Part shown: positions 31,061-46,386 of the stretch, piece by piece
Position numbering within the stretch: the first letter of the stretch is position 1
Layout of the letters: the number at the start of each line of letters is the position of its first letter
From: Desulfocurvus sp.
GTDB taxonomy: Bacteria; Desulfobacterota; Desulfovibrionia; Desulfovibrionales; Desulfovibrionaceae
Assembly: GCA_020692325.1 (NCBI GenBank)
Contig: JAIMKR010000003.1
Span: 114,556-178,555, forward strand
Direction: 5' to 3'
DNA: 64,000 bases
Program-made: the position numbers and the translations under genes
The notes under the pieces: model-generated
What the model saw: only the letters and a program-made list of their open reading frames with translations
What the model was told of the DNA's origin: nothing
Databases searched by the model: none

Positions 31061-31137
<77 letters not shown>

Positions 31138-31189
31138 TTTGATATTCCTTGGGATTTTGTTCAAAATCCCTTCGCCTCCAAAGGTTCAT

Positions 31190-31239
31190 GGATAAGCTAT
31201 GGATAAGTTCCTTGCGAAAGGAGCTTATCCGGCTTATCC
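31190..31239. repeat. Cluster of GGATAAG heptamers in inverted arrangement
   Basis: GGATAAG occurs at 31190-31196 and 31201-31207, and its complement CTTATCC at 31224-31230 and 31233-31239. The two pairs are part of a larger imperfect inverted repeat (GGTTC...GATAAG facing CTTATCC...GAACC). A further palindrome, GAACTTATCC A GGATAAGTTC, lies at 31445-31465 inside the integrase gene. Position just inside the tRNA end suggests integrase or excisionase binding sites. Confidence 0.6.
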
Positions 31240-32407
31240 GCGAACCATGGGCAGGGGCAGAAATTTCATAAAGACACGCTACCGGGGCGTTTACTACCGC
31301 GAGAGCTCCGCGCGCAGCGTGGGCGGCCGAGCCGATCGCTGCTTCGTCGTCTGGCTGACCGACGACGAGGGCAAGGGGCATTGGCACACCGTGGGATGGG
31401 CCAGCGACGGCGTCACCGAGCGCATCGCCCAAACCAGACGGCAGGAACTTATCCAGGATAAGTTCGTCGCCCACGAACGCGCCCAAGCCGCCCACGTGAC
31501 CATTGCCGGCGCTGTCGATGCCTACGCGATCTGGGCGCGGGCCGAGAGCAAGTCCATCGACACCGAGCTGTCCCGCTACAGGAAGCACCTGGAAAGCCCT
31601 CTGGGGGCCCTGGACGTCGAAATGATCACGGGAACGATGCTCACCGGCCTGAAGGCCGACCTGCTCACCAAACTCGCTCCTGAATCCGTCCACCATTGTT
31701 TCGCCTTCCTGCGCCGCGCCGTCAATTACGCCATCGCCGAGGGACTCCACACCGGCAGGAACCCTTTCGCCTCGGATCACAGGGGAACATTCACCATGCC
31801 CAAGGTGCAGAACGCCTGCGAGCGCTTTCTCACCCCCGACGAGGCCAGACGCCTGCTCGACGAGCTGCGCCTGCGCTCTCCCCAGCTGCACGACATGAGC
31901 CTGCTGTCCCTCAAAACCGGGTTGCGCGCCGCCGAAATCTTCACCATCCGCGGCCAGGACGTGAAGAATGAGGCCGGTGAGATCTGCGTTCGGGCCAAGG
32001 GCGGCGAGCGCCAGCGCGTCCACGCCCCGCCCGAGATCATCGACATGCTGCTGGCCTACAGACGGCTGCCCGGTGAATTCGTCTTCCAGTCCACCACGGG
32101 CGGTCCCATCAAGTGGGGCGTGTCCGACGCCTTCGGCCGCGCCGTGGACAAGCTCGGGCTGAACGAGGGCATCACGGACCGCCGGAACCAGGTCTGGTTC
32201 CACACGTGGCGGCACACCTTCGCTTCGTGGCTCGCGCAGAGCGGCAAGGTGACGCTCCTTGAGCTCAAGGAACTCATGCGCCACAAGCGCATCGAAATGA
32301 CGGAACGTTACGCGCATCTCATCCCCGGGCATCAAACCCGCTCGTTGCCGATTATTGACGAGACCCTGCGCCAGGGACTGCCACCTTCCGACGGGGAAGC
32401 ACGGTGA
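31199..32407 (+). CDS. Tyrosine-type site-specific integrase
   Basis: A 402-residue phage-type integrase. A short N-terminal arm-binding-like domain (residues about 18-90) precedes a SAM-like core-binding domain (about 98-200) and a catalytic domain. The catalytic residues are the Arg in KTGLRAAEIF, the Lys region RAKGGERQRVHAP, HTWRHTFASWL (HxxR), the His in ELMRHKRIEMTERYAH and the nucleophile Tyr of that same segment. It reads away from the tRNA-Arg gene it presumably targets. The ATG at 31199 lies inside the GATAAG repeat zone, and an ATG at 31247 (MGRGRNF) is an alternative start. Its 3' end overlaps the convergent HTH gene by 56 bases. Confidence 0.93.
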   Translation: MDKFLAKGAYPAYPRTMGRGRNFIKTRYRGVYYRESSARSVGGRADRCFVVWLTDDEGKGHWHTVGWASDGVTERIAQTRRQELIQDKFVAHERAQAAHVTIAGAVDAYAIWARAESKSIDTELSRYRKHLESPLGALDVEMITGTMLTGLKADLLTKLAPESVHHCFAFLRRAVNYAIAEGLHTGRNPFASDHRGTFTMPKVQNACERFLTPDEARRLLDELRLRSPQLHDMSLLSLKTGLRAAEIFTIRGQDVKNEAGEICVRAKGGERQRVHAPPEIIDMLLAYRRLPGEFVFQSTTGGPIKWGVSDAFGRAVDKLGLNEGITDRRNQVWFHTWRHTFASWLAQSGKVTLLELKELMRHKRIEMTERYAHLIPGHQTRSLPIIDETLRQGLPPSDGEAR

Positions 32408-34183: not shown

Positions 34184-34209
34184 GTTTGCTAATGACAACA
34201 GGAGTAATC

Positions 34210-34629
34210 ATGGAATATTGTTGCAAGCCTGACTTCTATAGTGCACACAAGCGGCACAACACCGATGCCGATATGCTTTTCAAGGAACATAGCCTTGCAA
34301 ATGCCGATCAGCTTTACGGAATTTCAGCAGAGTGTGGACTAAAAACACTGATGTCAAAATGGGGAATGCCTCACGACGAAAACGGAAATCCCCGAAAAAA
34401 AGACAGATTACATATTGATCAAATATGGGAAAGGTATGAGACCTATAGAGCAGGGAAGATTAGTTCGGATTACGGGTTATCTTCAGGTAATCCGTTCTCG
34501 GATTGGGATGTAAGCCAACGATATGAAGATGACGCAAAGATTACAATCAATGTAGTTCAAGAACATAAAAATGCGGCAAAGGAAGTGTGTTCTTTAGTTC
34601 AGAAAGCAACTCTGGATGGTATACTATAA
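34210..34629 (+). CDS. HEPN-like small protein, first gene of a three-gene conflict-type module
   Basis: A 139-residue, mostly helical protein. ANADQLYGISAECGLKTLM (residues 30-48) resembles the AxxLxGxxxECxLKxL helix typical of HEPN-fold proteins, which are often RNases or RNase-like toxins in bacterial conflict systems. R62 and H68 in RKKDRLH fit the RxxxxxH spacing of catalytic HEPN motifs, but a chance match is possible. The conserved-looking NPFSDWDVSQRY follows. The start at 34210 is chosen because GGAG lies five bases upstream. The longer frame to 34186 lacks this. Its stop overlaps the next start (TAATG), and the GC content is clearly lower than in the chromosome. The fold assignment is an inference from the motif. 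Confidence 0.55.
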   Translation: MEYCCKPDFYSAHKRHNTDADMLFKEHSLANADQLYGISAECGLKTLMSKWGMPHDENGNPRKKDRLHIDQIWERYETYRAGKISSDYGLSSGNPFSDWDVSQRYEDDAKITINVVQEHKNAAKEVCSLVQKATLDGIL

Positions 34630-35909
34630 TGAAAACCTTTGATGAAATTATCCCTACCCTTAAAAATATTTTTATTAAACACCCAGTAGATTTTGAAATT
34701 TATGTAAACCGTGATCTTAATGGACGCGTTAGGTTGGTGATTGATGATAAATACAATAACGACAATGAGATTAACAGTTGTCTAAGTGAAATTGCTATTG
34801 ACATTAATAACGAGCTTGAAGGGCATGCTTTTCCTCCTCTCCAGGGAGTTCTTTATGAACATGATGTGAACCATCTTTTTAAAAATGAACTTTCATCATC
34901 TCTTGATGCCACTTTACCAAAAATCAGAATTGTTGATCGATTGGTAACAGCGTCTGGATGGACAAGATGTACCCCAGCTTCCCCCAACAGCTCTGCGATG
35001 AGACTTGCCTTTTATTCGATTAAAGGCGGAGTTGGAAGATCAACCGCATTGGCTATTACGGCGAGAGAACTCGCAGAGTCAGGAAAACGTGTTCTAGTGA
35101 TAGATCTTGATCTTGAGTCCCCTGGCCTTTCGTGCTCGTTGTTGCCGTCTGATCGATACACTCGCTACGGTATCGTCGATTGGCTGGTGGAAGATCTTAT
35201 AGGAAACGGCAATGCAGTAATTGCTTCTTTGCACGCTCTCAGCCCAATTTCACACGATGGAGAAGTTTTTATTGTACCAGCCTATGGATCGTCTAAGGAA
35301 TACATCGAAAAGCTTGGCCGCGCATGGATGCCCAAATTAGATTCTAATGGGATAAATGAAAAGTGGCAATTTCGATTAGCACGTTTTTTGTCAAGCATCG
35401 AAGATGAGCTCAAACCAGATATTGTTTTGCTAGACTGTCGTGCTGGAATTACAGAGACAGCGTCAGCAGTTCTGACAGGACTGAACATTTCGCTTGCTCT
35501 TCTCTTTGCGATTGATACTGAACAAACGTGGGCAGGTTACCGTACGCTATTTGATTATTGGCAAAGGACTGCCACATTAGGTAAGATCAGAGATAAACTT
35601 CAGATAGTTGGGGCAATGATCCCTGAAGACAATACAGTTGACTACACGAGGACTCTGCGTGAACATTCCTGGAACGTTTTTTTGAATCATATATACGATG
35701 ACCTACCTGCGGGGAATGATGGAATTGATGCTGGAGATAGTTATGATCTGTCAGATGAATCCGGCCCCCATTATCCGTGGCCGATTATGTGGAATCGTAG
35801 CTTTCAATCCCTTTACAAGCTGGAGGGATGCATAACTTCTCTCGATCAGAATCGGATTACTAGTTGTTTTGGCGAATTTACTAAAAGAATTGTTGAATAT
35901 ATAGGCTAG
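34629..35909 (+). CDS. KGGVGR-motif variant ParA/MinD-like ATPase
   Basis: A 426-residue protein. Residues 1-120 form an N-terminal domain of unknown fold. From about 125 it is a SIMIBI-class P-loop ATPase: RLAFYSIKGGVGRSTALAIT (deviant Walker A, K132-T139), LVIDLDLESPGLS, and DIVLLDCRAGITETASAVLT (Walker B/switch). The Walker A lysine is replaced by Arg137, a hallmark of a group of ParA-like ATPases seen beside other conflict genes, known from database naming as KGGVGR variants. It has no partition context such as parB, so it is not plasmid segregation. It is translationally coupled to the HEPN-like gene by a one-base overlap. It may be a sensor or switch in the module. Confidence 0.8.
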   Translation: MKTFDEIIPTLKNIFIKHPVDFEIYVNRDLNGRVRLVIDDKYNNDNEINSCLSEIAIDINNELEGHAFPPLQGVLYEHDVNHLFKNELSSSLDATLPKIRIVDRLVTASGWTRCTPASPNSSAMRLAFYSIKGGVGRSTALAITARELAESGKRVLVIDLDLESPGLSCSLLPSDRYTRYGIVDWLVEDLIGNGNAVIASLHALSPISHDGEVFIVPAYGSSKEYIEKLGRAWMPKLDSNGINEKWQFRLARFLSSIEDELKPDIVLLDCRAGITETASAVLTGLNISLALLFAIDTEQTWAGYRTLFDYWQRTATLGKIRDKLQIVGAMIPEDNTVDYTRTLREHSWNVFLNHIYDDLPAGNDGIDAGDSYDLSDESGPHYPWPIMWNRSFQSLYKLEGCITSLDQNRITSCFGEFTKRIVEYIG

Positions 35910-35917
35910 AGGTTCTT

Positions 35918-37372
35918 ATGAACAATTTGGAAAACGTAAAGTCCCTGCGACAGGCAATAGCATCAGCTCTTCCTTTTGAAACCTCAAACTTCGGTCACCC
36001 CCCAAAAGCGGGGGAAGTTTTCATTCCGATGTCTCATACCAAGGCTTTAAAGTTAGAAGCGAGCCTTGTCGTTGGTGCTCGTGGTGTTGGGAAAAGTTTT
36101 TGGTGTTCCGCCCTATACGATGATAGTATCCGCAAACTATTATCTTCTTATATTTCAGGAATTGAATCAAGTAAGGTTTTTATTGGATACTGTGAACGAC
36201 CTGATATCAATAATTTTCCAGACAAAGCAACTATTGCTTCTTTGCTTTATCAGCATGCGAAGCCTCTTCATATCTGGCGCGGAATCATTCTAAGGTTTAT
36301 TGCAAACATTGTTAATCTTCCTGTTCCTACATCAAAGTGGATTGAAACAATAAACTGGGTTAAAAACTCTCCGGAGCAATGTGCACAGGGATTAGAAAAA
36401 TTAGATGGTTTGTTGCATAATAAAAATTTACACTATTTATTTTTATTTGATTCGCTAGACCGCTGTAGTGACGATTGGCATATAACAGACACCCTTGTTT
36501 CTGGATTATTGCAGCTTGCTTTAGATTTTAAATCTTTTCGCCATATTCATGTAAAAGTTTTTTTACGAGAAGACCAATTCGTTGAGAGAGCTGTCTTAAA
36601 TTTTCCAGATGCCTCTAAGCTTAATGCGACTCGCGTTGAATTAACTTGGTTTCTCCATGATCTTCACGGTTTGCTTTGGCAATATCTGATTAATGCTTCA
36701 GGCGATTATGGGCAAACATTCCGCAATATTATCACGGATGTCGCGCATGAAAAAATCAAAGAATCTTCAAAGGATGTATGGATTCTTCTAATGCTCTTAA
36801 GACGTTCTGAGGAAGCTCAACGCGCATTATTCACTCAACTTGCAGGTAAATGGATGGGGCGTGATCACCGACGCGGCGTTCCGTACCACTGGGCCGTTGG
36901 ACATCTCGCAGATGGCAGAGGAAGAACTTCTCCTCGTTCTTTTCTAGCCGCAATTCGCGCCGCAGCCGAGGATAGCAGTGAGCGTTACGATGACCAACCT
37001 ATCCCCCTACATTTCGAAAGCATTAAGCGAGGAGTTCAAAAAGCTTCGCAAATCCGTGTAAATGAATTAGCAGAGGATTACCCATGGATTCGCACCTATA
37101 TGTCTCCGCTACAAGGTCTAACTGTCCCTTGTGTTTTTCCAGATATCAAGTCGCGCTGGGACGAATCCGAAGCATTTAAGAAAAACCCCTCGGGCACTTC
37201 GGGGTTGCCACCGGAGCATTTGAAGGACGGTCCTGACGGTTTACGTCTTGATTTTGAATCGTTAGGAATTTTTGAAATGATGCGAGATAAACGCGTTAAT
37301 ATTCCTGACCTTTACCGGGTTGGTTTCGGGCTTGGCAGACGTGGTGGTGTAAAACCATTAATGCGCGAATAG
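35918..37372 (+). CDS. P-loop ATPase partner (STAND/KAP-like NTPase)
   Basis: A 484-residue protein. Walker A is LVVGARGVGKSFW (G53-S60), with an early region of about 45 residues preceding it. The candidate Walker B is LHYLFLFDSLDRCSDDW (D178/D181), followed by a helical region with HVKVFLREDQFVERA. The C-terminal half (about 230-484) includes WVAVGHLADGRGRTSPRSFLAAIRAA-type sequence and is conserved in look but of unknown function. The Walker layout fits STAND or KAP-like NTPases that act as sensors or effectors of phage defence. It starts 8 bases after the KGGVGR gene and is the last gene of the unit. AT-rich codon use matches its neighbours. Confidence 0.72.
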   Translation: MNNLENVKSLRQAIASALPFETSNFGHPPKAGEVFIPMSHTKALKLEASLVVGARGVGKSFWCSALYDDSIRKLLSSYISGIESSKVFIGYCERPDINNFPDKATIASLLYQHAKPLHIWRGIILRFIANIVNLPVPTSKWIETINWVKNSPEQCAQGLEKLDGLLHNKNLHYLFLFDSLDRCSDDWHITDTLVSGLLQLALDFKSFRHIHVKVFLREDQFVERAVLNFPDASKLNATRVELTWFLHDLHGLLWQYLINASGDYGQTFRNIITDVAHEKIKESSKDVWILLMLLRRSEEAQRALFTQLAGKWMGRDHRRGVPYHWAVGHLADGRGRTSPRSFLAAIRAAAEDSSERYDDQPIPLHFESIKRGVQKASQIRVNELAEDYPWIRTYMSPLQGLTVPCVFPDIKSRWDESEAFKKNPSGTSGLPPEHLKDGPDGLRLDFESLGIFEMMRDKRVNIPDLYRVGFGLGRRGGVKPLMRE

Positions 37373-37614: not shown

Positions 37615-38046
37615 TTGAAGCCAGAACTGAGATCAGCCGACGCTGACACCCTTGGGGCGCTTGCCCCAGACCAGCACCGCAAGGCCAACCTGGGCCAGTA
37701 CATGACCTCGCAATCCATTGCGGACTTCATGGCCTCGCTCTTTCCCCCAAGCGCTGTAGACACCTGCCGCCTGCTTGATGCCGGCGCGGGCCGTGGCGCG
37801 TTGTCATGCGCCTTTCTGGAACGCTGGGAACGACGGGACGGTCTCACCTTCAACGCCATCGACCTCGAGGCCTTCGAGTTCGACCCGCGGATGCGGTCCG
37901 CCCTTCAGCCGACTTTGGCCGCGCACGCCGCGCACGGGCAATTCCGCTTCCAGATCCTGGACGGCGATTTTGTGTTGCGCGCCGCGCAGCGCTGCGCCGT
38001 CGCACCTGATGCACTTCAATGGCTCGAGGTTCCTGGGCCCCTATGA
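37615..38046 (+). pseudogene. Truncated adenine-specific DNA methyltransferase (N-terminal fragment)
   Basis: A 143-residue fragment starting with TTG. LGQYMTSQSIADFMASLF followed by RLLDAGAGRGALSCAFLERW (SAM-binding motif I) matches the start of type II/IIG adenine methyltransferases such as Eco57I/PstI-type enzymes. The catalytic (N/D)PPY motif, expected about 60-80 residues later, is absent because the frame stops at 38046. The overlapping reading frame ends HLMHFNGSRFLGPYERPKTPEA just before a terminator at 38088. This suggests that an unrelated 3' gene end was joined here by deletion. The composition is high GC, unlike the adjacent AT-rich cassettes. Confidence 0.65.
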
Positions 38047-38087
38047 GAGGCCCAAAACGCCCGAGGCGTAAAAAAGACTCAAAGACA

Positions 38088-38121
38088 ACGGCCGGGGCGG
38101 TGACGCTCCGGCCGTTTTTTT
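38088..38121 (+). terminator. Strong Rho-independent terminator, copy 1
   Basis: A 12-bp stem, ACGGCCGGGGCG paired with CGCTCCGGCCGT, capped by a GTGA tetraloop (GNRA type) and followed by seven T. The same hairpin recurs at 38815. Confidence 0.88.
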
Positions 38122-38345: not shown

Positions 38346-38807
38346 ATGCAGTGGCATACTGAAAGGCGGCACCTTTTGTTGCTTGCCGTGGGTGTTCTTG
38401 TCGCGGCGCTTTTGGCCTTGGCGTGGAATTATGCCGCGCGAAAAATCCGTCCCCCCAAAAGCGAGAAAGACGGCTATCCCGTTGTTCTCGCGTTCACCAA
38501 GCCGGATATGGTCGAGGGCGCGACCTATAGCTATCACCTTCTGAAAATCACGGCGTTGGAAAACGGCCGGCGCAACCTAGAAATTGAGCTAAGCAAGCCG
38601 ATCTCGGAGCAGGGGCTCAAAACGCTTGCCCTGCGCCTTAAAAAGATGGACAGGGGCCAGTCTCCGCACCTTTTTATCGGGTATTATCTCCCGCAGATGA
38701 AGCACAACGGAAGCTACTGGGCGACGACAAATTTTGCGCCGGAGTTGACCGTCCACATCCTGGGGCCAAAGCCAGGCACGACCAGAGGCGCGCCGAGCAA
38801 ACCATGA
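38346..38807 (+). CDS. Small membrane-anchored protein of unknown function
   Basis: A 153-residue protein with an N-terminal membrane helix (HLLLLAVGVLVAALLALAWNYAA, residues about 9-31), then a charged extracytoplasmic domain with YSYHLLKITALENGRRNLEIEL and LFIGYYLPQMKHNGSYWATTNF. I recognise no family. It is bracketed by two copies of the same terminator hairpin, at 38088 and 38815, so it forms its own insulated transcription unit. A weak TATAGT lies near 38313. It could be a superinfection-exclusion-like membrane protein, but that is only a guess. Confidence 0.55.
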   Translation: MQWHTERRHLLLLAVGVLVAALLALAWNYAARKIRPPKSEKDGYPVVLAFTKPDMVEGATYSYHLLKITALENGRRNLEIELSKPISEQGLKTLALRLKKMDRGQSPHLFIGYYLPQMKHNGSYWATTNFAPELTVHILGPKPGTTRGAPSKP

Positions 38808-38814
38808 AATGACG

Positions 38815-38845
38815 ACGGCCGGGGCGGTGACGCTCCGGCCGTTTT
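38815..38845 (+). terminator. Strong Rho-independent terminator, copy 2
   Basis: The identical 12-bp stem and GTGA loop as at 38088-38115, here with four T, lies 7 bases past the stop of the membrane-protein gene. The two copies are 727 bases apart in direct orientation. Confidence 0.85.
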
Positions 38846-39098: not shown

Positions 39099-39629
39099 TT
39101 GAAAATTCAAAATTTCAAAGATATCGTGGATAATACACCAATATGTATTAAAGATTGCCAAGGTGACCTTTGCAAACTATATGCTTACGTTGGAATAACA
39201 TTCCAAAGCAGCTATCATGCAAAGAGTATTACCGAAGCTCTTCATAAAAAAATAAATCTTGCCTTCACTACAGGGCATCAAAAAGTACGTCAGAATTGCA
39301 AAAGAATGATCACCGATCTAATCCGCGAATATGTAATATATGACAAGCCATTAAGTCCATACTTTGAGATTCTTTCATGCCTTTGTGATGCGCTGAGATC
39401 AGAGACATCAAATATAGGAGTGGACATTATTGGCGACTGGAAGACAGCAATAAAATCGGCACGCGACGAAGTAGAATTCACAAATGTATGGGAAATTGGA
39501 CTTAAAAACCTGGCACAGACACGTGACTTTAATGTCGCACAAGCAGCGCGTTCACTTAAAGAAGATGGTTTTACTGTTCTTCTCACTCCAGGAGAAATTG
39601 CCTTAGACGAATATTCCGAAAAAAAATAA
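39099..39629 (+). CDS. Unknown 176-residue protein, partner of a nuclease-like gene
   Basis: The first gene of a two-gene AT-rich cassette. It starts with TTG (MKIQNFKDIVDN), with AGGG about ten bases upstream. The protein has four cysteines in the first third, then a mostly helical body containing VRQNCKRMITDLIREYVIYD and FEILSCLCDALRSETSNIG. I recognise no family. Its stop codon overlaps the start of the next gene (TAATG), so the two products are probably made in fixed proportion and work together. Confidence 0.65.
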   Translation: MKIQNFKDIVDNTPICIKDCQGDLCKLYAYVGITFQSSYHAKSITEALHKKINLAFTTGHQKVRQNCKRMITDLIREYVIYDKPLSPYFEILSCLCDALRSETSNIGVDIIGDWKTAIKSARDEVEFTNVWEIGLKNLAQTRDFNVAQAARSLKEDGFTVLLTPGEIALDEYSEKK

Positions 39630-41173
39630 TGAAAAAGATAGATCAGCTCATGGCAAATATCAGAGGAGTTAACTTTTTACAAGTATATTTCAAGATGCTA
39701 TCGTCAAAAATATACAGCAAAAATCTTCAACGGTATCTTCTCGTCCCGCATGCCTCCCTAGGAACAACTAACGTCTCTCCACAGATTCCGTGGGGTTATC
39801 TTTTGCAACTAGCAGTAAAACATATCCCTGGACGAAAGCCCTTCAAGAATACTGAAGAAAATTTTCACAGACTATTTACGTTGGCAAAAAACTATGCTGC
39901 TATCATTGATGTACAGCAATATACTCCATTAGCTTTCTTGCATTATGGAGCAAAAGAAATTCTCCATTACCTGCAAGAATGTGCAATTTATGATACGATA
40001 TTTCGTTTTCCTCAGATGCGTCCAAGCGATGCAGTACATTTGTGTTCTGGACTTTTCAATTTTCTTGACTTGAATAAAATAAGGGTAGGCGGGTGGAGTT
40101 TTGCTCAACTCATTAAGATGGTAGCTGCTTTATTCTATTCTACCCCCGACATTCGAGGGCCAGTCACCGTCAGTAAAAATGTTTTTTATCAGGCCTTGGT
40201 TGGTATTCCTCATAGTACGATTGATTATATGTTGGATAAACTATTAAGCCATAAAAGGAACAAAGCGAATAAGGATTTTTTGACCCCTTACACTGCCAAT
40301 AGCATTGATTTTCAATTCGCGCCATTGCTTCAAACAAACTCGAATACATTTATAATGATTGATCGATCTGTTTGTGCTCCAGCGTGCATAGAGGCATTAC
40401 TGACAGCAGCACGATGTATAGACAAACAACTCGACAACAAAATGGGGAAACAGGCAGAAAATTTTTTAAAGTCCGAATTCGCTCATAAAGGAATTGACGT
40501 CCATTGTGGTAATTACAAAACGGATGGGAAAGACGGCGAATGTGATTTAGTTTTAGAAACACAAGACACAATTTTTTTCCTTGAACTTAAGAAGAAACCG
40601 TTAACCCGCGCTGCTCGTGGCGGACTGGACTCCAAACTTCTACTTGATTTAGGAAGCAGTCTTCTCGCTGCTTTGGTGCAGGCAGGAGAGCATGAACGCC
40701 GGTTACGCAAGGCTGTTTTTTTGCGACTTAATGACAATGGAAATTTTTACACTTTAGAGCACAGAGGGCGTGCTATTGAAAAAATTGCTTTAAGCATGTT
40801 GGAATATGAACGCTTTCAAGATCGTCTTTTTGTTCAGCGTTTTCTGGAGAGTACTGTTGGAGCTCGTTATACCCTCAACGACGAAAAATCCGCTGACTTA
40901 AAAAAATTCTCCGTTTTGAATAAAAATTTACAAAAAATTGTTATACAATACAAAGAGCTTCCCCAGGCTAAGACACCAAACAAATTCTTTAACTGTTGGT
41001 TTTTAAGCCTACCCCAGTTACTTGTTTTGCTTAGCAATTGTTCAAATGCTAAAGATTTTCAAACTGCCATTATGAGCACAAAGTGTGTAACATTTGGCAC
41101 TTCTGACTTTTACTATGAGTACGCTAGGTCACTAGAATTATCTAAGAATCAAAAAGTCTCTTCCACAAGCTAG
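39629..41173 (+). CDS. Putative PD-(D/E)XK nuclease-fold protein of an AT-rich cassette
   Basis: A 514-residue protein. The N-terminal 260 residues are helical, of unknown family, and resemble a sensing or DNA-binding region. The nuclease core lies at about 265-350: E277 in MGKQAENFLKSEF, D306 in GECDLVLETQD, and E319-x-K321 in FFLELKKKPLTR. This E, D, ExK spacing over strands is the PD-(D/E)XK fold common to restriction and defence nucleases. The C-terminal portion (350-514) contains LERGRAIEK-like helices and an NCWFLSLPQLLVLLSNC segment. It is coupled to the upstream 176-residue protein by a one-base overlap. It would cleave nucleic acid. The substrate and trigger are unknown, and no methyltransferase partner is intact nearby. 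Confidence 0.62.
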   Translation: MKKIDQLMANIRGVNFLQVYFKMLSSKIYSKNLQRYLLVPHASLGTTNVSPQIPWGYLLQLAVKHIPGRKPFKNTEENFHRLFTLAKNYAAIIDVQQYTPLAFLHYGAKEILHYLQECAIYDTIFRFPQMRPSDAVHLCSGLFNFLDLNKIRVGGWSFAQLIKMVAALFYSTPDIRGPVTVSKNVFYQALVGIPHSTIDYMLDKLLSHKRNKANKDFLTPYTANSIDFQFAPLLQTNSNTFIMIDRSVCAPACIEALLTAARCIDKQLDNKMGKQAENFLKSEFAHKGIDVHCGNYKTDGKDGECDLVLETQDTIFFLELKKKPLTRAARGGLDSKLLLDLGSSLLAALVQAGEHERRLRKAVFLRLNDNGNFYTLEHRGRAIEKIALSMLEYERFQDRLFVQRFLESTVGARYTLNDEKSADLKKFSVLNKNLQKIVIQYKELPQAKTPNKFFNCWFLSLPQLLVLLSNCSNAKDFQTAIMSTKCVTFGTSDFYYEYARSLELSKNQKVSSTS

Positions 41174-41177
41174 TTCT

Positions 41178-41283
41178 GCCTACCCTAGCGCCCGCTGGAC
41201 GAGATAGCTGGAGCGGCTCATGCGATGCTCGCGCGCGGCCTCGTCGATGCGCCGCAGATCGGACTCGCGCAAGGTGAGATTGC
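41178..41283 (-). pseudogene. Remnant of an RHH (HicB-like C-terminal) domain gene
   Basis: The minus strand here reads the segment NLTLRESDLRRIDEAAREHR, then MSRSSYLVQRALG and a stop. This is the same C-terminal ribbon-helix-helix end as in the gene at 43126. The DNA matches 43126-43231 at roughly nine of ten positions. It has no start or N-terminus, so it is a fragment left by recombination. Confidence 0.75.
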
Positions 41284-41299
41284 TGCGCAGGCCCTGTTC

Positions 41300-41606: not shown

Positions 41607-43054
41607 CTACTCCCGCAGGCGCTCGCGCATCCGGTCATGCACGCGGTTCACGAATGCGTTGCGCCGCTCGGTCAGGGCGTCCAACCGCTGGCGCTTCTCC
41701 CCGGCGTCCAGGGACGGATCATCCGTGATCCGCCGGTTCGCCTTGGCGAACGCCGCCAGCCGCCGCTCCACCCGGGCGGCCACGCCATGCAGCCCCAGCA
41801 CCCCGCGTTTCTCCTCGATGATCTCTTGCGCGCGGTCCCGGTCGCCCGTGCGGCGCAACTCCATGACGGTGTTATACGTGGTCTCCACGTCGCGCAGCCT
41901 GTCGTACAGTTCCGCGCCCTGCCGGGTGTTCCTGGGCGGGCCGTCGCGGTAAAAGCTCCGCAGCACGGGCCAGTCCGAAAGACGCGGCGCGGGCTGCTCC
42001 GGCGCGTCCGTGGCCGCGCGCACGGCCAGATCCGTGGCGGCCAGCACGTACATGCCCAGCGTGCCGAAGAAGGCATTGACGAGGTGCTCCAGGCGCTTGG
42101 GGCTCACGTCCGCCGCGCGGCCGATGGCCGAGACCGTGGCCCCGGTCCATGGATCGCGCTGCTCGCCGGGTTCCAGGCGTTCCAGCCGGCGGCTCACGAT
42201 GGGCCGGTCGGTGAAGAAGCTCCGGTTGGCGTATTCCTCCACCCACGGCCCGGCGCACTGCGGAAAGCCGACGTTGAAGGTCTGCGTGAGCATGTAGCCC
42301 ATGCGCTGGGCGAAGAGCTCGCCTGTGGCCTCGTCATCCACGAACAGCTGCGTCAGCCGCTCCGGCACGGTGCCGAAGAGCGCCCCCACCTCGAAGGGCT
42401 TGAGCAGCCGGTAATGCCCGCCGCCCACGAAGAAGTGGTAGTAGTTGTCGCGGTCGAACTCCTCCAGTTCCTCGTATTCCGGCTCGCGCCGGTTGGCCAG
42501 GAACAGCGCGACCGAGGCCAGCGCCACACCACCGCGCCCTTGACGAGGAAGGCCCGGCGGTCGGCCTTGTAGCCCTTGTACAGCCGGTGCAGGCCGGTGA
42601 GCCGCGCGCCGAAGAACGGCACCGTCTCGCAGAGGAAGCGGATGGCCGGCCAGTCACCGCGCTTGGAATAGTCCATGATGTTCTTGGCCGTGTAGGCGGC
42701 GGCGAGGTGCGAGGCCCCGCGCCCGCGCATCCGCGCGTAGATCTCCGCGCGCGTGGCGTTCTCCCCGGCCTGGCCCTTCTCCTCCCACCAGCGCCAGCCG
42801 CTTTCGAGGAAGCGCCCCAGCTTGCGCGGCGTGTTCAGCACGCCAGCCTGCGCGATGCCGTGCTTGCGCAGCAGCCGGTCAACCAACAGCCGCGCGGCGG
42901 CGGGATCGTGCCCCATGGCGTAGCCGCCCTGGAAGCTGGCCCCGGCCGCCAGCATGTGCACGGTGTCCTCGTCCTCGCGCAGGGTCTTGGTGAGCCCGCG
43001 CCGGTCGCGATTGCTGTCGCCGTCACCACGCCTGTCCCCCTGACGGACTCCCAC
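41607..43054 (-). pseudogene. Frameshifted remnant of a phage large polyvalent-type protein (LPD38-like)
   Basis: Two minus-strand frames join into one protein: 43054-42530 ending KADRRAFLVKGAVVW, and 42527-41607 starting LASVALFLANRREPEYEELE. One missing base near 42530 changes the frame. The combined text (YTAKNIMDYSKRGDWPAIRF, FGARLTGLHRLYKGYKADRR, FDRDNYYHFFVGGGHYRLLKPFEVGALFGT) resembles the large polyvalent protein-associated domain 38 found in very long phage or element proteins thought to be injected or packaged. The upstream part of that giant protein is missing. It is therefore a dead fragment of a resident or past phage. Confidence 0.72.
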
Positions 43055-43125
43055 GTGAACGTAAACGGCCTGGGCGGTGACATCCAGGCTTTTTTGCGGA
43101 GCTCCCAGCGGACCCGAAACTTCCC

Positions 43126-43365
43126 CTACCCCAGCGCCCGCTGGACGAGGTAGCTGGAGCGGCTCATGCGGTGCTCGCGCGCGGCCTCGTCGATGCGCCG
43201 CAGGGCGGACTCGCGCAGGGTGAGGTTGATGCGCATGGTCCGGTCCTCCACGGGCGTGGCGTCGGACGCCACAAAGTAAAGTTCCCCGCTGATGTGATCC
43301 ACGGGGAGCACGTGTGGCGTCTGCACGAGGGATTTGGTACGCCGGAGCGATGGGGCTGTGCCCAA
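43126..43365 (-). CDS. HicB-like ribbon-helix-helix antitoxin-type protein
   Basis: A 79-residue frame ending MRINLTLRESALRRIDEAAREHR and MSRSSYLVQRALG. This C-terminal part fits an RHH DNA-binding domain of the HicB antitoxin type. The front half (HVLPVDHISGELYFVASDA) looks like a shortened HicB N-terminus. No HicA toxin gene is adjacent. Its 3' 105 bases are duplicated at 41178, so the region was rearranged. A start within the frame at 43236 (MRINL) would leave only the RHH domain. It may be functional or a leftover. Confidence 0.5.
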   Translation of the reverse strand: MGTAPSLRRTKSLVQTPHVLPVDHISGELYFVASDATPVEDRTMRINLTLRESALRRIDEAAREHRMSRSSYLVQRALG

Positions 43366-45828: not shown

Positions 45829-46386
45829 ATGCGCCGCAGCGACTTCCGCCACGCGTCAGCAGTCCAAACCACGGCGCTGTTTTTCGCCCTGGCCGTTCTC
45901 GGCGGCTGCGCCCCGGCGCGGCATGTCCTCACCGTTCCCCCGCGCGAGGCCATGGCAAAACTTTCGCCCGTGCGCGGGCACACGGCCTCCGGCCTCATGA
46001 CCTTCCGGCCGCAGGGACGGCTGTTGCTCATTCAGGGGGATTTCGCGGGGCTCACGCCCGGAGCGCACGGCCTGCACATCCACGAGGGCGACGATTGCGG
46101 GGGACGCGGCGCGCGCGACGCCGGCGGACACTTCAATCCCACGGGTGCGCGCCATGGCAGTCCTGGCGCTCCCTCGCACCACGCCGGCGATCTGCCCATG
46201 GTCACTGCCGGGGCTGACGGCACAGCCCACTTCCAGGCCGCCATGGACGGCCTGGACCTTGGCGACGACACGCGCGGAATCATCGGCCACACCGTCATCG
46301 TCACCGCCCGGCCGGACAACTTCACCACCCAGCCCGACGGCGGCTCCGGTCCGGCGGTCGCCTGCGGCGTTATCCGCGAACGTTAG
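45829..46386 (+). CDS. Cu/Zn superoxide dismutase-like lipoprotein
   Basis: A 185-residue exported protein. The lipobox LGGC places acylated Cys27 at the start of the mature protein. The SOD fold is clear: GAHGLHIHE (H83, H85), GGHFNPTGARHG (H101, H109), HHAGDLP (H118, D121) and the disulfide pair C90/C179 in ACGVI. The zinc ligands (H101, H109, H118, D121) and three copper ligands are therefore present. But the fourth copper ligand position reads VIVTARPDN, with T159 instead of His, and the conserved active-site Arg before the ACGVI motif is A176. Dismutase activity is thus doubtful. It could bind copper poorly or have another role. RBS AAGGAG precedes the start. Confidence 0.85.
   Translation: MRRSDFRHASAVQTTALFFALAVLGGCAPARHVLTVPPREAMAKLSPVRGHTASGLMTFRPQGRLLLIQGDFAGLTPGAHGLHIHEGDDCGGRGARDAGGHFNPTGARHGSPGAPSHHAGDLPMVTAGADGTAHFQAAMDGLDLGDDTRGIIGHTVIVTARPDNFTTQPDGGSGPAVACGVIRER

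Follow-up and report, generated by a model that had tools for sequence, protein, structure and literature searches.

We have analysed a locus of Desulfocurvus sp. at which two AT-rich ORFs lie on the plus strand of a genomic island bounded on its left by a tRNA-Arg gene. The DNA examined is a stretch of 64,000 nucleotides, hereafter the window, and homologous loci in other records carry L numbers, L045 being the copy on an IMG/VR viral contig. The features on which the analysis rests are the following.

31061..31137, plus strand: tRNA-Arg(CCG), the left boundary of the island, where homology to same-genus loci ends
31199..32407, plus strand: tyrosine integrase (Pfam Phage_integrase, E 4e-20)
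34186..37372, plus strand: PDC-M28A, B and C candidate defence genes (PADLOC E 6.8e-49, 6e-147 and 1.4e-187, nearly whole profiles)
37615..38046, plus strand: type II DNA methyltransferase fragment, N-terminal part only (PADLOC MTase_II, E 5.5e-26)
39099..39629, plus strand: ORF 1, the N-terminal piece, 176 aa, TTG start
39619..39626, plus strand: A8 tract, followed by TAATG, the site of the frame change as placed by tblastn of L045
39629..41173, plus strand: ORF 2, the C-terminal piece (middle region, nuclease domain and C-terminal region), 514 aa, ATG start
40079..40363, plus strand: possible winged-helix segment, residues 151-245, from a low-confidence model
40421..40798, plus strand: YraN-like PD-(D/E)XK nuclease domain, residues 265-390
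40457-40459, 40544-40546, 40583-40585 and 40589-40591, plus strand: codons of the invariant motif residues E277, D306, E319 and K321, respectively

An initial annotation of this locus had described two ORFs of 176 and 514 aa overlapping by one base, a description that is accurate in both coordinates and lengths, as the stop of the first ORF and the start of the second have one base in common in TAATG. The AT-rich composition it had noted is equally evident, with GC contents of 37.3% and 38.6% in the 176-aa and 514-aa ORFs, respectively, compared with 61-75% in 1-kb windows outside 34-44 kb. Library searches with the 176-aa piece (Pfam, PADLOC, NCBIfam and PHROGs) returned best matches of E 0.02 or worse.

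Homology to five same-genus loci ends at 31137-31140 and resumes at 45954-46025, delimiting an island of ∼14.8 kb. The flanks are only 214-304 bp apart in four of the five loci and the fifth (L051) holds ∼5.6 kb of other DNA, which gives the site the look of a hotspot; a search with 14-mers for an att repeat of the tRNA yielded none. All three PDC-M28 components are present in this island together with the nuclease gene; one of the three is small, one resembles ParA (Pfam AAA_31, CbiA) and one is a P-loop protein whose match to the NCBIfam Sll1717 family falls below the cut-off. The methyltransferase fragment encodes 143 aa corresponding to profile positions 20-127 of 494 and is the only such match among the 11 larger ORFs of 31-44 kb scanned. 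No methyltransferase common to the neighbours of 12 loci was found, and the earlier statements that no intact methyltransferase lies nearby and that this is not a standard restriction-modification system are both supported. Two 38-nt repeats (38081-38118 and 38808-38845, 95%), terminator-like by eye, flank a small ORF at 38346-38807 in the interval that separates the methyltransferase fragment from the nuclease gene. Downstream, an ORF of LPD38 phage type (41607-42527, minus strand) overlaps a second minus-strand ORF (42353-43054), which may be the rest of the LPD38 gene in another frame, and direct repeats are present at 41179-41289 and 43125-43235 (93%).

Comparison of the two ORFs with homologous proteins altered the reading of the locus. 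In a tblastn search of the window, residues 1-173 of L045 matched 39099-39626 and residues 173-679 matched 39623-41128, which places the frame change at 39623-39626, inside the A8 tract. The 176-aa piece corresponds to residues 1-173 of L045 and 1-172 of a Xanthomonas protein (41% and 39% identity), and the 514-aa piece to residues 173-679 and 176-688 of the same two proteins (44% and 41%). When a -1 step is introduced at the A8 tract, the translated window can be aligned gap-free to SETRLIGDIEKL of L045 and to SETALVAAIEDL of the Xanthomonas protein. Both parts are read in a single frame in all 18 homologous loci that span the junction (L003-L012, L043-L045, L061 and L064-L067), ∼14 of which are distinct once the near-identical groups L003/L004, L010/L011 and L043/L044/L064 are taken into account; L062, a second copy of L007, the repeats of counted loci L046-L049 and L063, and L068, a fragment ending short of the junction, were excluded. 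Sequence comparison thus shows common ancestry with single-ORF proteins, and the feature is, on this evidence, a single gene of a ∼690-aa protein with its frame broken here in the A8 tract. The initial annotation had proposed two genes, a nuclease and an unknown partner; however, in all 18 spanning loci the supposed partner forms the N-terminal region of the nuclease protein itself, and conserved pairing of two genes fails as a test since the parts are fused in every other locus examined. A two-gene cassette or defence pair was therefore rejected, separate side-by-side genes being observed in 0 of the 18.

The single-ORF relatives define a family. A tblastn search of 72,556 plasmid records identified 15 with a relative, to which a second query added one. 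Of these, 11 of the 15 and the added record were examined. A single annotated ORF of 646-700 aa is present in nine of the 11, annotated as hypothetical protein or, once, as YraN family protein, and two of the 11 are interrupted; the added record, although unannotated, contains a 674-aa ORF (L061). Members measure 646-700 residues from the start codon and up to 800 from stop to stop. L045, a single 690-aa ORF 44% identical to the window protein, is a closer relative than the Xanthomonas protein; most homologues are 21-26% identical. The gene is located on plasmids, in the island of the window, on the IMG/VR viral contig and on contigs of Burkholderia-like genomes, the ∼14 distinct loci besides the window coming from, among others, alpha- and gammaproteobacteria (by record) and from Burkholderia and Paraburkholderia. 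The two interrupted copies are those of Xanthomonas LMG930 and Shewanella: for the former, the annotation gives two ORFs that part at a later point than in the window, and the latter, on a Shewanella plasmid (L012:3296-6624), carries an IS3-like element (ISSba3). L045 adjoins ORFs read as phage late genes and the window copy adjoins the LPD38 ORF; a common prophage cargo slot was nevertheless rejected, as only the nuclease among nine L045 ORFs searched matched the window, leaving a common phage origin unsupported.

Distribution of the family is rare and patchy. With the query genome counted in each case, a single genome had a member among the 288 of the bacterial family of the window, as was also so among the 348 of its class and the 399 of the order to which a Burkholderia belongs; for Paraburkholderia relatives the figure was 6 of 296, one of the six being a fragment. 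In the phylum of the window, E <= 0.001 was reached in 2 of 395 genomes, in one case through a match confined to 58 residues of the nuclease domain. A looser profile search matched 53 of 198 relatives but, apart from the window genome and two others (G372 and G401), these matches extended over 91 positions or fewer, mostly ∼50-60 in the nuclease domain, which is what YraN itself would be expected to give. No match was obtained in 50,697 phage records with either the window piece or the Alteromonas protein.

The nuclease domain carries the strongest signal of conservation. Aligning nine distinct full-length homologues gives 690 columns, of which 18 are invariant; these include E277, D306, E319 and K321, corresponding to a hypergeometric P of 3.3e-7, a rough figure as columns are treated as exchangeable. 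The four residues are also invariant in 11 of 11 rows of a larger family alignment, and the motif is retained in all six members outside the nine-homologue set (L061 and L064-L068). Of these six, L064 shares 94% identity with one of the nine, and the search that yielded L064-L068 used a profile containing the motif. In the interrupted Shewanella copy, only E277 and D306 are alignable and both are retained. The residues had been named by the initial annotation from one sequence and the homologues were collected by whole-protein tblastn, so that their conservation constitutes a fair test; the annotation had held that homologues without the residues would speak against a nuclease, and they are kept. 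The nuclease region is the most conserved of the protein, with a mean pairwise identity of 0.32 compared with 0.18-0.22 elsewhere, the N-terminal 173 residues being the least conserved (0.18).

Library and structure searches point in the same direction, with weak or partial sequence matches only. The 514-aa piece matched NCBIfam YraN (NF009150) with E 4e-4 at residues 269-323, below cut-off, scoring 20.4 bits against a family cut-off of 81. Pfam UPF0102 (PF02021) was matched by one of eight members (E 0.015), Pfam DpnII (PF04556) by one of eight (E 2.7e-4), and PADLOC PDC-M29B by the window (E 0.0014) and by two of eight members, with a best value of 0.00034. Scattered weak matches in single members among the eight scanned comprised Pfam DpnII, NERD and UPF0102 and PADLOC Csx1 (E 6.4e-4) and HEC-02B. 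Searched against solved structures, the family profile detected one, the UPF0102 protein PDB 3fov (E 0.0048, or 0.012 when built from the larger alignment), the motif being part of the aligned stretch. At the level of single sequences, the window piece matched no PDB sequence at E <= 1 and the best match of L045 (E 0.3) was unrelated to nucleases. YraN proteins have been described as PD-(D/E)XK members whose typical motif is ID-EVK (PMC1189080). Membership of the PD-(D/E)XK superfamily is supported here by the E, D and E-x-K residues, which fall in register and agree with 3fov.

Models of the protein are weak, mean pLDDT being 50.1 for the 514-aa piece (4 sequences) and 47.9 for L045 (5 sequences). 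The element order in the 514-aa model (H268-286, E290-295, E304-310, E314-320, H335-361, E365-370) fits an alpha-beta-beta-beta-alpha-beta core, at a model mean pLDDT of 50 or less. Thus, of the claim that the motif residues stand in strand context, the order of elements is right, as weakly tested by a model of mean pLDDT 50. Three Foldseek runs gave no match at E <= 0.001 (best 0.0045, 0.031 and 0.073). VIA-align, whose own note cautions that Z < 8 may reflect just a common arrangement, matched the 514-aa model to Upx (Z 7.3), LmuA (7.1) and Cdn1 (6.4), and the L045 model to Nt.BspD6I (9.2), McrBC (7.3), Card1 (6.4), Shedu SduA (6.1) and Upx (5.9). For the L045 model, each of the top 14 rows is a McrBC chain or a nuclease of the restriction or CRISPR-associated kind, and unrelated proteins appear further down. 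Residues 146-271 of the model resemble AF1382, the Cdt1 C-terminal domain and MarR-type regulators, all of which we take to be winged helices (Z ∼4-6, block pLDDT 39-74). The family layout would be a variable N-terminus, possibly a winged-helix middle, a YraN-like PD-(D/E)XK domain and a C-terminal region. The earlier nuclease call is supported by the invariant E-D-ExK residues, the weak in-register matches to YraN/UPF0102 and 3fov, and the nucleases among the structural matches.

No full-length model of the family was found in Pfam or PADLOC (8 members scanned) or in NCBIfam or PHROGs (window pieces scanned). A literature search whose coverage left out preprints and most subscription papers returned nothing for six family protein accessions, no link between YraN and anti-phage activity and nothing on PDC-M28; the titles and opening parts of abstracts in the UPF0102 and phage literature contained nothing on the nuclease family. 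The feature is genuine and in part new, as the scans made gave no full-length model for this large nuclease family. In a genome of the bacterial family of the window, a 722-aa protein (L014:646-2814) with NERD nuclease and SEC-C matches also matches the nuclease-family profile over 210 positions (E 7.7e-13).

Components of specific defence systems are found close to the family gene in several loci. BilB, BilC and BilD are present near the gene in Xanthomonas 85-10, a CBASS-type cyclase and a WYL protein in Xanthomonas LMG930, Dsr1 and PDC-S15 in Rhizobium jaguaris, HmaC in Bradyrhizobium, AbiEii in Alteromonas, PDC-M30A/B in Methylobacter and a partial PDC-S11 match (E 3.7e-7) in R. phaseoli. 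These derive from 20 neighbour proteins picked by annotation, none of them from beside the Paraburkholderia copy; 12 matched and eight did not, the latter including the one neighbour scanned for each of the IMG/VR and Burkholderia copies. Beside the Bradyrhizobium gene, three minus-strand genes in a row (L007:545-4741), one with a CHAT domain annotation, have no PADLOC match at E <= 0.001. In a control drawn from the same six plasmids at a distance of roughly half the plasmid, 55 proteins matched 48 PADLOC models at E <= 1e-6, compared with 33 models for 38 neighbour proteins, and by raw model counts enrichment near the family gene is not seen. The 25 of 48 control models listed include mad8, mad3, AriA, ZorD, DpdE, typeIV_RecD, RecD_like and PDC-S68, and by region annotation, the matching protein being unspecified, the control matches look like ABC ATPases, other ATPases and helicases. 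The control is not clean, and one of its regions ends within an annotated Hachiman gene that was outside the scan; genes cut at an end, most of those below ∼110 aa and IS3 genes annotated as frameshifted were excluded from both sets, and a type III effector gene from the neighbour set also. Among ORFs of at least 100 aa within 8 kb of 12 loci, with L045 covered on one side only, just two cross-locus pairs were detected at 1e-6, read as IS21-type transposase and tyrosine-recombinase ORFs. As no neighbour is conserved, the gene product most likely works by itself or together with host factors. The neighbours are suggestive of defence, a hint and not proof, and as raw model counts show no enrichment over the control we infer rather than demonstrate a defence role, which is plausible from context. 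Thus, of the proposed phage-sensing nuclease pair the nuclease stands and the pair, being one gene, does not, while defence is plausible from context with a control that by raw counts shows no enrichment.

We consider it probable (roughly 0.62) that the locus holds one gene of a family of standalone defence nucleases and that the window copy is frameshifted and most likely silent or nearly so. The protein would be an anti-phage or anti-plasmid DNA nuclease acting without a partner gene, in which the variable N-terminal part, perhaps together with the winged-helix-like middle, would sense incoming DNA or an infection cue and the YraN-like domain would cut DNA at a metal-dependent E-D-ExK site. 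The window copy, beside the PDC-M28 set in the same island, would have been put out of frame through a one-base slip in the A8 tract. TAATG coupling could still allow both pieces to be made from it.

The family could instead be a nuclease with a function in repair, recombination or plasmid maintenance. In sequence its domain is most akin to YraN/UPF0102, the fold matches include Holliday-junction resolvases and raw counts against the PADLOC control show no enrichment near the gene; nevertheless, the patchy distribution, the mobile locations and the defence components close by in several loci make a role outside defence unlikely, if the most credible of the alternatives.

A second alternative concerns the break itself, which might be a sequencing or assembly error in a genome with an intact ORF. 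The break lies in a homopolymer and the assembly is in 27 contigs. Against this, the window contains 28 homopolymers of at least 7 nt, two of them A8, and only the A8 at 39619 is within 3 nt of the end of its longest ORF (>=120 aa; ORFs were called mechanically and one of the 28 runs falls in none). The other A8 (22437) and the G9 run (3564) are both inside long ORFs, which argues against a general homopolymer fault in the assembly rather than against a local error. Furthermore, the gene is broken elsewhere too, in 2 of 11 examined plasmid records, by other means or at another place. An error is on balance distinctly unlikely.

Alternatively, full-length protein may still be made from the window copy through ribosomal -1 slippage on A_AAA_AAA or through RNA-polymerase slippage, either of which would limit the dose of a toxic nuclease. 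An in-phase heptamer A AAA AAA directly precedes the stop, -1 leads into the right frame, and apart from the A8 point both pieces are open. However, the 84 nt downstream of the run fold no better than shuffled sequence (z -0.16), on which basis a programmed frameshift with a stem-loop was rejected, and none of the 18 other spanning loci is broken at the A8 position, indicating that no such signal is needed elsewhere. We regard continued synthesis by slippage as improbable. A related and more speculative idea, to which we give little credence, is that the A8 tract is a functional switch, slippage in replication (phase variation), transcription or translation turning on a costly standalone defence nuclease, of a family not otherwise described in the searches made, in a minority of cells. 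A promoter scan was unremarkable, with 7 sites compared with 5.1 expected.

Genuine fission into two TAATG-coupled polypeptides forming a two-subunit nuclease would agree with the one-base stop/start overlap and the otherwise open pieces, but is very improbable as all 18 spanning loci are in one frame, none of four homologues compared has an ATG at the position of the second start of the window, and the break is in the longest homopolymer of the gene, which points to slippage.

The preferred reading, a single frameshifted gene, carries a caution, as an apparent two-gene system from one genome may be one frameshifted gene and conserved pairing should consequently be checked before a system is named. 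What the ∼14 distinct loci besides the window have in common is one large protein whose nuclease site is invariant, and as the proposed family travels as one gene it is easy to test for phage defence.

Compared with known proteins, the family most closely resembles YraN/UPF0102 (PDB 3fov; PF02021; NF009150), with which it has in common the E-D-ExK register of the PD-(D/E)XK core over ∼55 residues; however, the YraN-type profiles matched span 108-134 positions whereas this family has ∼440 residues before the domain and ∼120 after it. The weak match to PDC-M29B, presumably one part of a several-gene candidate judging from the letter suffix of its name, covers the same ∼55 residues as the YraN match but only positions 37-93 of a 164-position profile. 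One member matches the DpnII restriction endonuclease, but the window protein has no Pfam match at all at E <= 1. Matches to Nt.BspD6I, Lamassu LmuA, Can2/Card1, McrC and Shedu SduA are centred on the nuclease domain (Z ∼5-9) and the likeness seen concerns that domain, none of these proteins being found by sequence. Upx (PDB 9wuf) also has no sequence match to the family, and its chain is 1212 residues long; residues 151-467 of the 514-aa model match its C-terminal part (970-1272, Z 7.3) with an rmsd of 10.2 over 225 residues and 15% identity, a resemblance of low-confidence models that may serve as a lead only.
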